From Kiritimatiellia bacterium (GTDB lineage: Bacteria > Verrucomicrobiota > Kiritimatiellia > RFP12 > JAAYLN01): a stretch of DNA of 64,000 bases. A model generated the notes under the pieces. That model made no database searches. It was given only the letters and a program-made list of their open reading frames with translations, and was not told where the DNA came from. Both the position numbers and the translations under genes were made by a program. Positions 9,929 to 58,402 of this stretch are shown in pieces (the first letter of the stretch is position 1; every line of letters starts with the position of its first letter). The stretch covers positions 1 to 64,000 of the forward strand of contig JAGCUY010000140.1 of NCBI GenBank assembly GCA_017962605.1, written 5' to 3'.

Positions 9929-9941
9929 GGTAGGTAATGTG

Positions 9942-9996
9942 TAAGTGTGAAAATGTGAAAGTGTGAAAGTGTGAAAGTGTGAAAGTGTGAAAGTGT
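9942..9996. repeat. GTGTGAAA octamer tandem repeat
   Basis: About six copies of GTGTGAAA (one variant AATGTGAAA) lie directly upstream of the GH10 start. They replace any normal leader, and no ribosome binding site is seen. Reading through them in the GH10 frame gives a Thr-Leu-Ser-His-Phe-His repeat, which explains the over-long reading frame. Confidence 0.85.
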
Positions 9997-19589: not shown

Positions 19590-21908
19590 TTATTCAACGG
19601 CCGCCATCTCCACCCGGTCAACGAACACCCTGCAGGTCGGGTGGATGCGGTCGGGCAGCTCGCCGGGCCGGATGTCGAAGTCGTCGCCGGCATGGGGCGT
19701 GAATTCCCCGCCGAAGTCGTACCATGCGTAACTTTCGCCCGCTTCGCCGAGTTTCACCGAATGGGAGACGACTGGCTCCTTGCAATGGTCACGGGTAATC
19801 ATTAGCCAGAAGGCTTCGCGTTCGTCGTCGTCCGCCTCCGGGACGCGCTCTATGCGGACATGCGCGCGGACACGGTACTTCCCATCCAAGTCCAGCCCGA
19901 CGCTGTCAAGCGGGGTGAAGTTCCAGCCGCGATAGGAGTATTCGACGGCGCGGCCGTGGACCGCCTGGGGATCTTCCACGCGGCGACTGTCCACGGGATA
20001 CGCCGTCGGGATGATCCTCCCGTGTTCCATGACGATGACGTTGGAGACGACCGACGGGCCGCCACCCATGGCGAGGTCGCGCATTTCCTTTTTGGTGTGC
20101 CTGTTCAGCGCGGGCAGTTCGGCGAGTGAGACCGGCGGCTCCCCCTCGTCAAGCATCGGGACGATGAACGAGCGGGCGATCTCGCGCAGCTCCTCTCGCC
20201 GCGCGGCATCAACCCGTTCGGGATGGAGCGTGCAGATGTAGTCGGCGCAGCGCGGGCCGCGGAAGCCGCGCGTGACCCGCGTGACCTCTAGGCCAAAGAG
20301 GCCCCAACGGGCAGCGTCATGGTGGATTGGACTGTCCTTCGTGGCCTCGCATGCCATTCTCCAGAGTTCTGCGCCATGGTCGTAAACCTCGTCTGGGACG
20401 ACAGGGTCGCAGATGCGCTCGAATATCCAAGGGGGATCTTTCACGCCGTCCCGCATCGCGCCCAGCGCGTGGATTTCGTCGAACCAGGCGCGCGCATACG
20501 AGGCGCCGGCGCCGTAGTAGGCGGCGAAGAACTTGTCCAGAAGCGGCTCAAGCGGCTGGTCGCTCTTCCAAAGGAACTTGGCCATCAAATAGGCCTTCAA
20601 TTCGGCGAAGTCCGAATGCGCGGCGTTGTTCCCGGAATGCTGCTCATAAACGTGTGCGACGCCGTTCGCCTTGAAAAACCGGAGGTCGGGCCCCAGCGCC
20701 AGCGTGTTTGGGAAGGGGTGCGTGTAGTGGCGGAAGTTGATGACGTAGTTCCAGACGTAGAGGTTGGAGGTCACCTTCCCCCACCCTCTCAAGTATTCGG
20801 CGAACCGGCGCCTCTCCTCGTTGCGGCTTTCGGGGATGGGGCGGTAGATGTCGGTGCCGGGGACGCAGATGCAGGGCATGACGTTAGGGAGCAGTTTCGT
20901 CTTGGCCGGCGGCTTGATGGAGTAGTTGTAGGCCAGCGTCTCGACAACGGCGTCCGGCCGCACCTTCGCGACCTCTGCCGCGACATGGTTGACAAACCGG
21001 ATAATGGACACCGACGGGCTACCTTCCTCCTCGTCCACGGCCCTGCACTTTTCGCAACGGCAGTAGTTGCTATTATCGTTCTGGCTCACGCCGAAATATT
21101 TGCATTCGGGGTGGCGTTTCACAATCTCCAGCACCTTGTCCGTCATGATTTTTACGACATCGGGATTCGAGAGGCACGGCTGGCTCTCCCTTGCGCCGAA
21201 CTCACGCCGGATGCCGTCAACCTCGGCGAAATATTCGGGATGGTCGTGGAAGTAAGTCTCGGGCGGCAGCAGATACATGAAGGTGTGGCAGTTCGGCAGT
21301 TCCGCGCAGTATCGGAAGTCGCTCGGCCCACCAAGTTCCGGGGTGGCCGCGCGGCACGACAGGTTCCCGTTGTACCTGAGCCTGGCTGCGAACTCAGAAT
21401 GGTACATCACGTCTGTGGCGCAGGTGTCGCGCTGGACGAAATCGGGAATCTGCCTGTCGCGGAGGCCGCAGGGGACGGAAAAGGACGCTGCCTCGGGCAC
21501 AACTTCCGTGCCGCTGGCGAACCAGCCGCATCCACCGTAGGTCTCCAGTAGTTCGTAGACGCCGTAGAGGACGCCGGCCCGCGAGCCGCCCCGAATGCGC
21601 AGGGTGTCGCCCTCCACCGCCAGCTCAAACCCGTCGTCGGCGAACTCGCCGGAGGACAATTGGACAACCGGCCCCGACGGGCGTTCGCCTTCCGTGGACA
21701 CGGGGAGTTCGACGCCCGTGATGCGGCGCACGTAGTCGCGCAGTTCGCCGGCCGCGTGGCGCTCCACTTCCGATTCGGCATTGGAGCACCAGATTGTGGT
21801 CCGTAGTGGCGCCCCTCTCTCCGCCACGACAAAGTCGCCAGCGGCATCGGCCTCTGCCGTCGCAACGACAGCGACAAGCGAAACAAAGCAACAGCATATC
21901 GCTTTCAT
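19590..21908 (-). CDS. Secreted DUF4838-family protein (first of two)
   Basis: 772 aa. A signal peptide (MKAICCCFVSLVAVVATAEA) precedes an alpha-glucuronidase-like N-terminal domain (~25-140; HAAGELRDYVRRITGVELPV, LYGVYELLETYGGCGWF). The DUF4838 core (~190-480) has HPEYFAEVDG, CLSNPDVVKIM, YFGVSQNDNSNYCRCEKC and VETLAYNYSIKPP. A C-terminal ~150-residue beta domain may bind carbohydrate. DUF4838 proteins are abundant in PVC and Bacteroidetes glycan loci and are suspected glycoside hydrolases; activity here is unproven. The start overlaps the stop of the upstream DUF4838 gene as ATGA, and it is the last gene of the unit that begins with the regulator at 28670. Confidence 0.9.
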   Translation of the reverse strand: MKAICCCFVSLVAVVATAEADAAGDFVVAERGAPLRTTIWCSNAESEVERHAAGELRDYVRRITGVELPVSTEGERPSGPVVQLSSGEFADDGFELAVEGDTLRIRGGSRAGVLYGVYELLETYGGCGWFASGTEVVPEAASFSVPCGLRDRQIPDFVQRDTCATDVMYHSEFAARLRYNGNLSCRAATPELGGPSDFRYCAELPNCHTFMYLLPPETYFHDHPEYFAEVDGIRREFGARESQPCLSNPDVVKIMTDKVLEIVKRHPECKYFGVSQNDNSNYCRCEKCRAVDEEEGSPSVSIIRFVNHVAAEVAKVRPDAVVETLAYNYSIKPPAKTKLLPNVMPCICVPGTDIYRPIPESRNEERRRFAEYLRGWGKVTSNLYVWNYVINFRHYTHPFPNTLALGPDLRFFKANGVAHVYEQHSGNNAAHSDFAELKAYLMAKFLWKSDQPLEPLLDKFFAAYYGAGASYARAWFDEIHALGAMRDGVKDPPWIFERICDPVVPDEVYDHGAELWRMACEATKDSPIHHDAARWGLFGLEVTRVTRGFRGPRCADYICTLHPERVDAARREELREIARSFIVPMLDEGEPPVSLAELPALNRHTKKEMRDLAMGGGPSVVSNVIVMEHGRIIPTAYPVDSRRVEDPQAVHGRAVEYSYRGWNFTPLDSVGLDLDGKYRVRAHVRIERVPEADDDEREAFWLMITRDHCKEPVVSHSVKLGEAGESYAWYDFGGEFTPHAGDDFDIRPGELPDRIHPTCRVFVDRVEMAAVE

Positions 21909-24256
21909 TGACGCAAGAACTCCACTTTGTCTATATAGACGCCATTAATGGACGACTTGCCGTCGTCGCCGAACGTGCCGGGCGCAATCCACAGGATCTC
22001 ACCGGCGCGCGGCGTCCACGTGAGAATGTCGTACCAGGCGTACTCGTTCGGTGTCTGGCCGGTCGTGAAATTCGCGCTGCCGGCGGTTTTCCTGTCGTCG
22101 GTGCAGTAAACGCCCGCGCTGAACGCCATGCCGTCGCGGCGGCCATCGACGCGCATCCTGAGGCGCAGCCGGTATTTCACGCCCGGCTCGAACGCGACGT
22201 TTGAAAGCGGGAACTGCACGCACCACTCGTAGTGCGTGTTGAAGAGCTTAAGCGCCTTCCCGTCGTCCGCCTTCGGGTCATCCACGAGTTCACCCCACGT
22301 GCCGGGGTTGATGACGCCGAGGAAGCGCTCCTCCAGCTCGCCGCTGTCGTCTTCATACGGCTTCACCCCCTCCTGCGCGACGATGCGCCAGCGCATCTTG
22401 ACATCCTGCCGCGGCGTCTCCGCAAGCCGTATGTCCTTTGCCTCATCCAGCCGCGCCACGAGCGAGCGCGCCAGCGCCCGCGCCTCGTCCGGCGGCAGGA
22501 CGCCTTTCGCGTTGCGCGAGAGGTTGAGCAGCTTGCAGCCGCGCTCCATCCGCGCGTAATCGACCGAGAAAGCGCCCATCCGCACGTTGTAGGAGATTGC
22601 CGGGTCGTCCGCCACAACGGCTTCGGCCTCCCGCCACACGGCGGCGGCCCCGGTTAGGAACTCGTCTGGGAGCGCGGGGTTCGCCACGCTGTCGAATACC
22701 TTGAGCGGATGGCCGGGCGACGCCGACCAGTCGCGCTGAAGCCTGTGCAGTTCCTCGAAGTATCCGCGTACGAGCGGCGCGGCCTTGCCGTAGTAGCCCG
22801 CGAAGAAGTCGTCCAGCAGGGACTCCATCGGAAGGTCGGGGTTCCACATCCATTTGGCGAGGAGCCACGCCTTCAGTTCGGCGAAATCGGCGTGGCGTCC
22901 CTGCCACGCCCCCTGCTCGAAGATGGCCTTCACGTTGTTGCGGTGGAAGAAGCGGAGGTTGCCCTGGAGCGAATAGACGTTCGCCCACGGCATCGGATAG
23001 TTGAAGAAGTCGGTCGTATAGTCCCAGACGAAAAGGAGGTCAGTCTGCCGCCCCCACTCCTCGATGTCCCTGCGGAACTCAACGTTCGACTTGTAGGGAC
23101 TTTCGTCAATCGGCCGCGCGAAGTCGCAGTTGATCGAGCAGAGGCACGGCACCACGTTGTGCCGGAGCCGCGTCTTCCCCGGCGCCTTCTGCGTGTGGCT
23201 ATAGGCGAGCGTCTCTATGAGCACGTCGGGGCACTCCTTCTCCACCTCCTCGGCGACGGCGTTCACGAAGCGCACGTTCGCGCCCGATGGCGACCCCTCC
23301 GCGTCGTCCACCGCCTTGCACTGCGGGCAGCGGCAGTAGGCGACGTTGTCGTTCTGGCTCACGCCGAAGAATTTCGCGCCGGGGTCCCTGCGGATGCGCT
23401 CCAGGACGTTCGAGGTGACGATCCGAAGCACGTCTGGATTCGTGAGGCAGAGCTGCGTTTTGCCCCTGACGCGCTTCCCGTCGATCATGCTGAAGTATTC
23501 GGGGTGCGCGTCGAAATAGTCCTTCTGCGGCAGCAACTGCTCAAAGGTGTGGGCCATGGAGAGCCCGCCGCCGAAGCGCCATGGGTCGCCGCCGTATTTC
23601 GCGCCTGACTTCCCGCCGAACTGGTGGCTGTTCACGCGAAGCCTCGCCGCGAACTCCGGGTGCATCCGGACGTCGAACCAAAAAGGCTCCCGCATCGAGA
23701 ACGCCGGGACGTGCGTTTCGTCGAGGTCGGCCGGGACCTCGAAGCGTTCGCGTTCCGGGACGACCGAATGCCACGACGCATACCACCGGCACCCCGCGAA
23801 CCTCTCCAGCAGCTCGTACACGCCGTAGAGGACGCCGCGATCACCGCCGCCGGTGATGCGGAGCCTTTCGCCTTCCACTTTAAGGCGGAAGGCATCCGCG
23901 CCGCTGCGCGGCGTTAAGATGCCCCGAGCTTCTAGACTTCCTATCCCTTCTAGACTTTCTAGAATAATCGCCTTCTCCGGGAGGGTTGCAGCCACCAGTT
24001 CCCCGTTTCCCGCACTCCGTTCCCCGTTCCCCGTTCCCTGTTCCCCCGTTCCAATCGGCAGTCGGACGCCCGTCACCTTCTCGGTGAAGTCGCGCAGCTC
24101 CTCGGCGGCGTAACGCACGACTTCTGACGCCTCCGCCGGAACCACGATGGAATACGCCGCCACCCTGCCGCGCTCGGCCAGGACCAGGTTGCCGGCAAGC
24201 GCATTGGCCGAGACGACCGTCAGCGCCGCAAGAGTGGATGCGCCCTTCATGGCCAT
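21905..24256 (-). CDS. Secreted DUF4838-family protein (second) with repeat-derived insertion
   Basis: 783 aa, paralogue of the downstream gene. Signal peptide is roughly MKGASTLAALTVVSANALA; M1 (24256) and M3 (24250) are both possible starts. The glucuronidase-like N-domain (YAAEELRDFTEKVTGVRLPI, LYGVYELLERFAGCRWY), the DUF4838 core (HPEYFSMIDG, FFGVSQNDNVAYCRCPQC, IETLAYSHTQKAP) and the C-terminal beta domain are all present. Residues 69-87 (GTGEQGTGNGERSAGNGEL) and ~97-111 are translations of short tandem DNA repeats absent from the paralogue, which has about 30 fewer residues at this place. The frame is kept, so the gene is probably still functional. The LamG-like gene ends 21 bases upstream. 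Confidence 0.9.
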   Translation of the reverse strand: MAMKGASTLAALTVVSANALAGNLVLAERGRVAAYSIVVPAEASEVVRYAAEELRDFTEKVTGVRLPIGTGEQGTGNGERSAGNGELVAATLPEKAIILESLEGIGSLEARGILTPRSGADAFRLKVEGERLRITGGGDRGVLYGVYELLERFAGCRWYASWHSVVPERERFEVPADLDETHVPAFSMREPFWFDVRMHPEFAARLRVNSHQFGGKSGAKYGGDPWRFGGGLSMAHTFEQLLPQKDYFDAHPEYFSMIDGKRVRGKTQLCLTNPDVLRIVTSNVLERIRRDPGAKFFGVSQNDNVAYCRCPQCKAVDDAEGSPSGANVRFVNAVAEEVEKECPDVLIETLAYSHTQKAPGKTRLRHNVVPCLCSINCDFARPIDESPYKSNVEFRRDIEEWGRQTDLLFVWDYTTDFFNYPMPWANVYSLQGNLRFFHRNNVKAIFEQGAWQGRHADFAELKAWLLAKWMWNPDLPMESLLDDFFAGYYGKAAPLVRGYFEELHRLQRDWSASPGHPLKVFDSVANPALPDEFLTGAAAVWREAEAVVADDPAISYNVRMGAFSVDYARMERGCKLLNLSRNAKGVLPPDEARALARSLVARLDEAKDIRLAETPRQDVKMRWRIVAQEGVKPYEDDSGELEERFLGVINPGTWGELVDDPKADDGKALKLFNTHYEWCVQFPLSNVAFEPGVKYRLRLRMRVDGRRDGMAFSAGVYCTDDRKTAGSANFTTGQTPNEYAWYDILTWTPRAGEILWIAPGTFGDDGKSSINGVYIDKVEFLRQ
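23929..23966. repeat. CTTCTAGACTTC-type repeat inside the DUF4838 gene
   Basis: CTTCTAGACTT occurs twice (23929 and 23948) followed by TCTAGAAT, within the coding sequence. It adds residues ~97-111 of the protein (ILESLEGIGSLEARG) without shifting the frame. Confidence 0.7.
23998..24052. repeat. GTTCCCC heptamer repeat inside the DUF4838 gene
   Basis: About seven GTTCCCC/GTTCCCT-like heptamers (some imperfect), the same family as at 262-300 and ~28732-28758, lie in frame in the gene. They encode residues 69-87, a Gly/Asn/Glu stretch. Confidence 0.85.
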
Positions 24257-28726: not shown

Positions 28727-29061
28727 CGCGCAGGGAACGGGGAACAGGGAACGGGGACATGAATGTGGAAATGTGGAAACAGCCAATGTGGAAATAGGGA
28801 CTAGGGGCTAGGGACTAGGGGCTAGGGAGGGCCCGGCTTCGTCCGGGCCACTGCGGACGCGACAAAGCGCGTCCCTCCCGACTTTCGACTTTCGACCTTC
28901 GACTTTCCTGGTTTTCCCATGCCGCAGAGCGGCCTTCCCAATCTGCCGGGGAGCGGCCACGGCCGCGCAGCAGGGCTGGCGGCGCATGAAGCTTGCTTCG
29001 GTGCGGCGGCAGACACGCCGCAGAATGCGCATGCGCATTTCCGGCAGTTTTCAAAGTTCGG
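28727..29061. repeat. Mosaic of short tandem repeats and small hairpins in a 554-base gap
   Basis: No gene is present between the regulator (28670) and the ATPase (29225). In order: GGGAACG/GGGAACA heptamers (28732-28758), AATGTGGAA units (28761-28795), CTAGGGA/CTAGGGG units (28796-28828), hairpin GCCCGG/CCGGGC (28831-28848), hairpin GGACGCG/CGCGTCC (28855-28874), four CGACTTT heptamers (28879-28906), then GC-rich sequence with small inverted repeats to ~29040. Confidence 0.75.
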
Positions 29062-58262: not shown

Positions 58263-58402
58263 TTCCGCACCGTAGTCTCACGATACTTCCGCACTGTGGT
58301 CTAATAATACTTCCGCACAATAGTCTCATGACTTTCCGCACCATAATCTCGCGACATTCCGCACCGTAGTCTCGCGACATTCCGCACCGTAGTCTCGTGG
58401 GA
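58263..58402. repeat. Six-unit 23-24-bp tandem repeat array
   Basis: Units start at 58263, 58287, 58311, 58334, 58357 and 58380. The consensus begins TTCCGCACCGTAGTCTCGCG and is followed by ACA. Units 4-6 are nearly identical; 1-3 are more diverged. There are no unique spacers, so it is not CRISPR. A 67-codon minus-strand frame through it merely translates the repeat. Confidence 0.85.

Follow-up and report, generated by a model that had tools for sequence, protein, structure and literature searches.

The GGGAACG heptamer array found inside a DUF4838 gene of a Kiritimatiellia bacterium is read here, with a probability of roughly three in four, as one copy of a dispersed (GGGAACG)n repeat that invades coding as well as intergenic DNA within one order of Kiritimatiellae. 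The DUF4838 case is an instance of a much wider pattern of in-frame repeats in some gut Kiritimatiellae genomes, the hosts of which include DNA gyrase and a tRNA synthetase, and an array in frame should add a floppy, glycine-rich loop to the protein that carries it. Short tandem repeats whose unit length cannot be divided by three would be expected to stay outside genes; GGGAACG is common in core enzymes, where it is nearly always readable and in the sense orientation, so that a 7-bp repeat can act as a gene-invading element. All positions given without a contig name refer to the window, the whole stretch of 64,000 nucleotides that was analysed.

Two repeat arrays within a DUF4838 gene

The host gene (P0001, minus strand, 21905-24256) encodes a protein of 783 amino acids, and its match to the PF16126 profile, 338.5 bits against a gathering score of 26.6, places it in the DUF4838 family. 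The AlphaFold2 model of the protein has a mean pLDDT of 87.5 and fold matches to GH115/GH138/GH84/GH67 glycosidases, and the named relatives of the gene come mostly from Kiritimatiellae and Verrucomicrobia assemblies, many of them obtained from the ruminant gut. TRF finds two arrays in the gene: (GTTCCCC)7.7 at 23998-24052, which is the GGGAACG heptamer on the minus strand and encodes residues 69-87 (peptide GTGEQGTGNGERSAGNGEL), and a period-9 array of the CTAGA type, TTCTAGACT x3.8, at 23930-23963 (minus strand; residues ~98-109, ESLEGIGSLEA), within which both copies of CTTCTAGACTT lie. The reading frame stays open across both arrays, as had been claimed in an earlier note on this DNA. Four GGGAAC cores are clustered in the gene, and at least three were seen in 0 of 2000 codon-shuffled versions of it.

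The adjacent DUF4838 paralogue (minus strand, 19590-21908; BLASTP, PF16126) is 38% identical to the host protein and has a linker without repeats, with alignment gaps at the repeats totalling ~31 residues, which agrees with the earlier description of a neighbour lacking both segments. A gain of ~30 residues over two segments was claimed at the same time, but only the first segment is a clear insertion. Segment lengths were measured on an alignment with 28 homologues, in which the row of L037 begins downstream and its values for this region are meaningless. The stretch from LPI to KAI has 32 residues in the host protein versus 15 in 24 of the 28 homologues, so that the heptamer array adds ~17 residues. 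The stretch following KAI, in contrast, has 27 residues, which is the homologue median (range 13-30 among the rows covering the region), and it is long only when compared with the nearest clade (L112 and L114-L116, 15-16 residues). The net gain is ~17 residues, to which up to 12 are added when the nearest relatives are the reference, and not a uniform 30. Orthologue linkers at the second segment are equally long but different in sequence, so that this segment half fails the comparison with orthologues proposed in the note, which the first segment passes.

The 11-mer CTTCTAGACTT has two copies genome-wide, both in the host gene, and its designation as an otherwise intergenic family is therefore wrong for that spelling. 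Its proposed spread into genes lacks support, the exact motif being confined to one gene with a linker of ordinary length. A looser 9-bp CTAGA array type does occur elsewhere, in intergenic DNA at L058 and L071 and within genes at L061 and in the paralogue on C118 (L105). Taken together, the CTTCTAGACTT array is weaker evidence for insertion than the GGGAACG array.

The only internal segments of the model with a pLDDT below 50 are residues 73-85 and 104-118, the former lying between strands at 68-71 and 96-101, and in this otherwise confident model the GGGAACG insert looks like a disordered loop linking the two strands. A search for inverted repeats within 23850-24120 returned just one 12-nt pair, situated outside the arrays, and no terminal inverted repeats of the kind found in Rickettsia palindromic elements (RPE). 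The palindrome CCAGCACCACGGGCAAGGCCGTGGTGCTGG was considered as a dispersed REP element and rejected, its 16-bp core being found genome-wide only in three DUF4838 paralogues (C118:9338-9353, C160:46143-46158 and C175:7336-7351; perfect 12-bp arms); its nucleotides are nearly unchanged among these paralogues, the proteins of which differ much. The pattern GACGCGACAARCGC, considered as an element inserted in the paralogue on C55, matched that gene alone and was likewise rejected, with related hairpins occurring intergenically.

Abundance of the GGGAACG family

Searches of the 4.18-Mb genome gave 134 hits for the tandem 14-mer GGGAACGGGGAACG and 0 for a reversed-pattern control, and GGGAACG is the commonest period-7 class. 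TRF returned 57 rows of period 7, 32 of period 8 and 12 of period 9 from a 443-kb sample of the genome and no rows of period 7-9 from one dinucleotide shuffle of that sample; for 609 kb of loci from relatives, the corresponding numbers were 6, 6 and 15. With a 7-bp unit present at many loci and far above chance, the family has the properties of a dispersed G-rich heptamer, and its repeated G3-G4 tracts, separated by 3-nt spacers, make the arrays G-quadruplex-compatible by sequence.

Further arrays were located in the window by TRF. Intergenic GGGAACG arrays lie at 268-299 (core 273-299; minus strand), between two plus-strand genes, and at 28731-28757 (plus strand), and intergenic plus-strand arrays of other heptamers are present at 28795-28828 (TAGGGAC, another short repeat family) and 28879-28907 (CGACTTT). 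Arrays of the AAAGTCG type also occur in frame within another gene (L057). Two adjacent hairpins, GGCCCGGCTTCGTCCGGGCC and GGACGCGACAAAGCGCGTCC, lie amid the heptamer arrays at 28830-28874, have copies at several intergenic sites and are possibly a REP-like element. An octamer array, TGTGAAAG x7.4, is located between two genes at 9938-9996, and a 23-bp minisatellite of 5.7 copies at 58263-58396. A plasmid search by BLAST gave no match, low-complexity filtering making such a search uninformative for repeats, and no RNA gene with a GGGAACG array was recognised in 20 loci (DNA with two tRNAs only), RNA genes being a further location of RPE. The repeat and its peptide were absent from the literature searched, which lay mostly outside subscription journals.

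Arrays inside genes

The gene context of 60 GGGAACG loci was determined with a hexamer-model gene finder written for this analysis and not from annotation, so that gene boundaries are approximate. Intergenic positions accounted for 41 loci and genic positions for 19 (in 18 genes), and the genic arrays were in the sense orientation in 17 cases and antisense in 2 (binomial p = 7e-4), the sense arrays encoding (GTGNGER)n. The genes flanking intergenic arrays showed the opposite tendency, 26 having the same orientation and 46 the opposite one (Fisher p = 4.6e-5 versus the genic arrays, the neighbours not being fully independent). The sense bias within genes, together with the mostly genic arrays of nine other genomes, departs from the Xanthomonas and Nostoc type of repeat, which lies for the most part between genes and avoids the coding strand. 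Ten close pairs of genes around intergenic arrays were inspected by eye for signs of a split gene, and the members of each pair look separate.

Nearly all host genes have a Pfam or NCBIfam match, and in several of them the array lies inside a single Pfam domain. AlaRS, GltB, GyrA, CarB and UmuD score above the NCBIfam cut-offs; further hosts are a SpoIIE-type phosphatase, GH127-like, GH2-like, UmuC-like, AAA and alcohol-dehydrogenase-like proteins, and a second DUF4838 paralogue. In-frame insertion into conserved protein genes, as seen with RPE, is thus found for GGGAACG as well. The AlaRS model is poor (pLDDT 67.8), and its placement of the insert between two helices is weak evidence. The GltB gene of this genome (L070:14670-19295) has two GGGAACG arrays and two further repeat-built extra sites, the additional residues of which derive from TGGCAACAT-like and GACGAGA/CAGGTCT-like short repeats.

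Presence and absence of the inserts among relatives

The proposal that such repeats have entered genes and create peptide segments is strongly supported for GGGAACG, with 18 host genes here, 60 in nine other genomes, and relatives without the insert wherever this was tested. GyrA has FAACVRTGNVGGTGNGEQGTDGERGTGNGERGTAADSL in this genome and FAACVKVGGTADSL in the 86% identical orthologue of G004, a difference of 72 nt in favour of the former. The first GltB site is 54 nt longer than in G111 and the second 36 nt longer than in G005, the first site of which is filled by a different heptamer, GAAGGTC. AlaRS exceeds the 93% identical orthologue of G005 by 33 nt and shows a 15-nt difference from G004, whose own segment at this place is unrelated, while UmuD has 14 residues more than PDB 1i4v. 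Orthologous arrays in methyltransferase and solute-binding-protein genes differ in length by seven residues, equal to three units. A target-site duplication was not evident in the filled and empty pairs of GyrA, GltB and AlaRS, the flanks of which have diverged, and neither a transposase nor an inverted repeat was found for the GGGAACG arrays.

Distribution across the order, class and phylum

Within the class, 52 of 288 genomes contain the GGGAACGGGGAACG pattern, but high numbers are restricted to two families of the order to which the window belongs. The 21-mer was found in 4 of the 289 genomes searched across the phylum, and these four are again members of that order; a relative from the same genus has no GGGAACG 14-mer. 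In nine other genomes of the order (f3), the 75 loci divide into 66 within genes (57 sense, 9 antisense) and 9 in intergenic DNA. As the coding density of these genomes is 0.86, their arrays are not depleted from genes. The intergenic share is 9/75 there versus 41/60 here, a gap that one filter fails to explain. When the ten genomes are combined, the genic arrays number 74 sense to 11 antisense, and the 78 host genes form 13 shared families and 41 singletons, with matching loops of UmuC, UmuD, GltB and an alpha/beta hydrolase being hit in different genomes. As several insertion sites recur between distant genomes, inheritance or transfer, and not independent insertion, may account for some of the arrays.

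UmuC-family genes with GGGAACG arrays, sense or antisense, were seen in six genomes (L084, L229, L252, L265, L276, L281), mostly at two recurrent loops. A viral contig (L289) encodes, at ~2662-2682, RGTGNGERGT and then a PIPHSP stretch; both lie near the start of a 682-aa frame, which was read by eye as a putative phage portal protein.

Mechanism and alternative explanations

Because a 7-bp unit does not fill whole codons, it takes three units to make seven codons, which read GTGNGER on one strand and SPFPVPR on the opposite one, and three GGGAACG units contain no stop in any of the six frames. An array should consequently be translatable in any phase as long as it adds a number of nucleotides divisible by three, which would leave the family unusually able to sit inside genes. 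Existing copies would give rise to arrays at new places, through copying or template switching, slippage would subsequently change the number of units, and selection would remove out-of-frame, antisense or protein-core insertions, so that in-frame sense inserts in loops remain. The sense bias within genes, compared with the opposite bias of 26:46 near intergenic arrays, suggests that selection acts on the peptide, with GTGNGER probably better tolerated than SPFPVPR, with an insertion bias as the alternative. It may also be, though this is a tentative extension that is doubted more than believed, that GGGAACG, GAAGGTC, AAAGTCG, GACGAGA and 9-bp CTAGA arrays were all moved by a single process of dispersal, as yet undescribed, which places 7-9 bp arrays at new coding or noncoding sites, the same loops being filled repeatedly with different repeats in sister species. 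If true, such a process would produce new peptide segments quite generally.

The absence of an obvious GGGAACG-like seed at the empty AlaRS and GltB sites speaks against the possibility that each array expanded in place by local slippage from a native seed, with no dispersal. In its favour, heptamers are reported to be abundant among long simple repeats, and a 7-nt polymerase contact has been proposed for them (PMC4679880), and the empty GyrA site of G004 has GGCGGGACCG, which is close to the unit and makes local seed expansion possible there. Independent seeds, however, predict many units, whereas the same unit is found again and again, at dozens of loci that are unrelated, and the motif is nearly absent outside the order; slippage alone is thus an unlikely explanation. 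G-quadruplex formation in vitro has been seen with similar G-rich heptamers (PMC4692102), and the arrays might be kept for a function of this kind, as a protein-binding DNA or RNA signal, or as a useful flexible linker, with which the lack of depletion from genes in the nine genomes and the repeated use of the same loops would be consistent. Such a function is nonetheless improbable, since the hosts are unrelated in function, the modelled DUF4838 insert looks disordered, and the same-genus relative without the GGGAACG 14-mer has GAAGGTC in the same GltB loop, where the loop and not the sequence seems to matter.

Other bacteria use heptamers for phase variation, and a unit length that is not a multiple of three would allow the gain or loss of one 7-bp unit to shift the frame and switch a gene off. 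This is very improbable here, as gyrA, alaS, gltB and carB are poor candidates for on/off control and the orthologous arrays compared differ by three units, with the frame kept. The genome is a 231-contig draft assembly with some arrays at contig ends, which could suggest an assembly or binning artefact, but the DUF4838 host gene is internal to a 76.8-kb contig, ten separate assemblies all have sense arrays in frame, several of the arrays at orthologous sites, and random misjoins would not preserve both frame and strand, so that an artefact is scarcely credible. With dispersal of (GGGAACG)n as the preferred reading, the question of how heptamers disperse becomes testable by comparing relatives with and without an array at a given site, and the arrays offer a natural experiment on the amount of disordered insert that a conserved protein can accommodate.

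Comparison with known repeat systems

The systems closest in unit and dispersal are the Xanthomonas and Nostoc heptamers, while RPE are closest in behaviour. The G-rich heptamers GGGAATC of Xanthomonas and GGGGA(C/T)T of Nostoc PCC 7120 resemble GGGAACG in having a 7-bp G-rich unit, short arrays on both strands throughout the chromosome and a G-quadruplex-compatible sequence, but they are intergenic at 89-93% and 68%, respectively, and under-represented on the coding strand (PMC4692102). The genic GGGAACG arrays, in contrast, lie mostly on the coding strand (74:11 over ten genomes), 88% of the loci are genic in nine genomes, and the unit and the phylum differ as well. RPE insert in frame, with 19 reading frames reported (Ogata et al. 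2000, reviewed in PMC2229807), and share with GGGAACG the presence of one repeat family in frame in many conserved protein genes, to which peptide segments are added; they are, however, palindromes of 105-146 bp with terminal inverted repeats, whereas GGGAACG is a 7-bp tandem repeat without an inverted repeat. The TAACTGA heptamers of Beggiatoaceae and some cyanobacteria, described as mostly intergenic (PMC4679880), likewise form tandem arrays at many loci, are patchy across genomes and have no known mechanism of spread. They are set apart by this intergenic location and by a unit unrelated to GGGAACG. The STRR heptanucleotides of heterocystous cyanobacteria comprise several heptanucleotide families per genome, as is the case here, with different units and in a different phylum. 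GGGAACG is a variant among the known heptamer repeats, with a genic behaviour that resembles that of Rickettsia palindromic elements.
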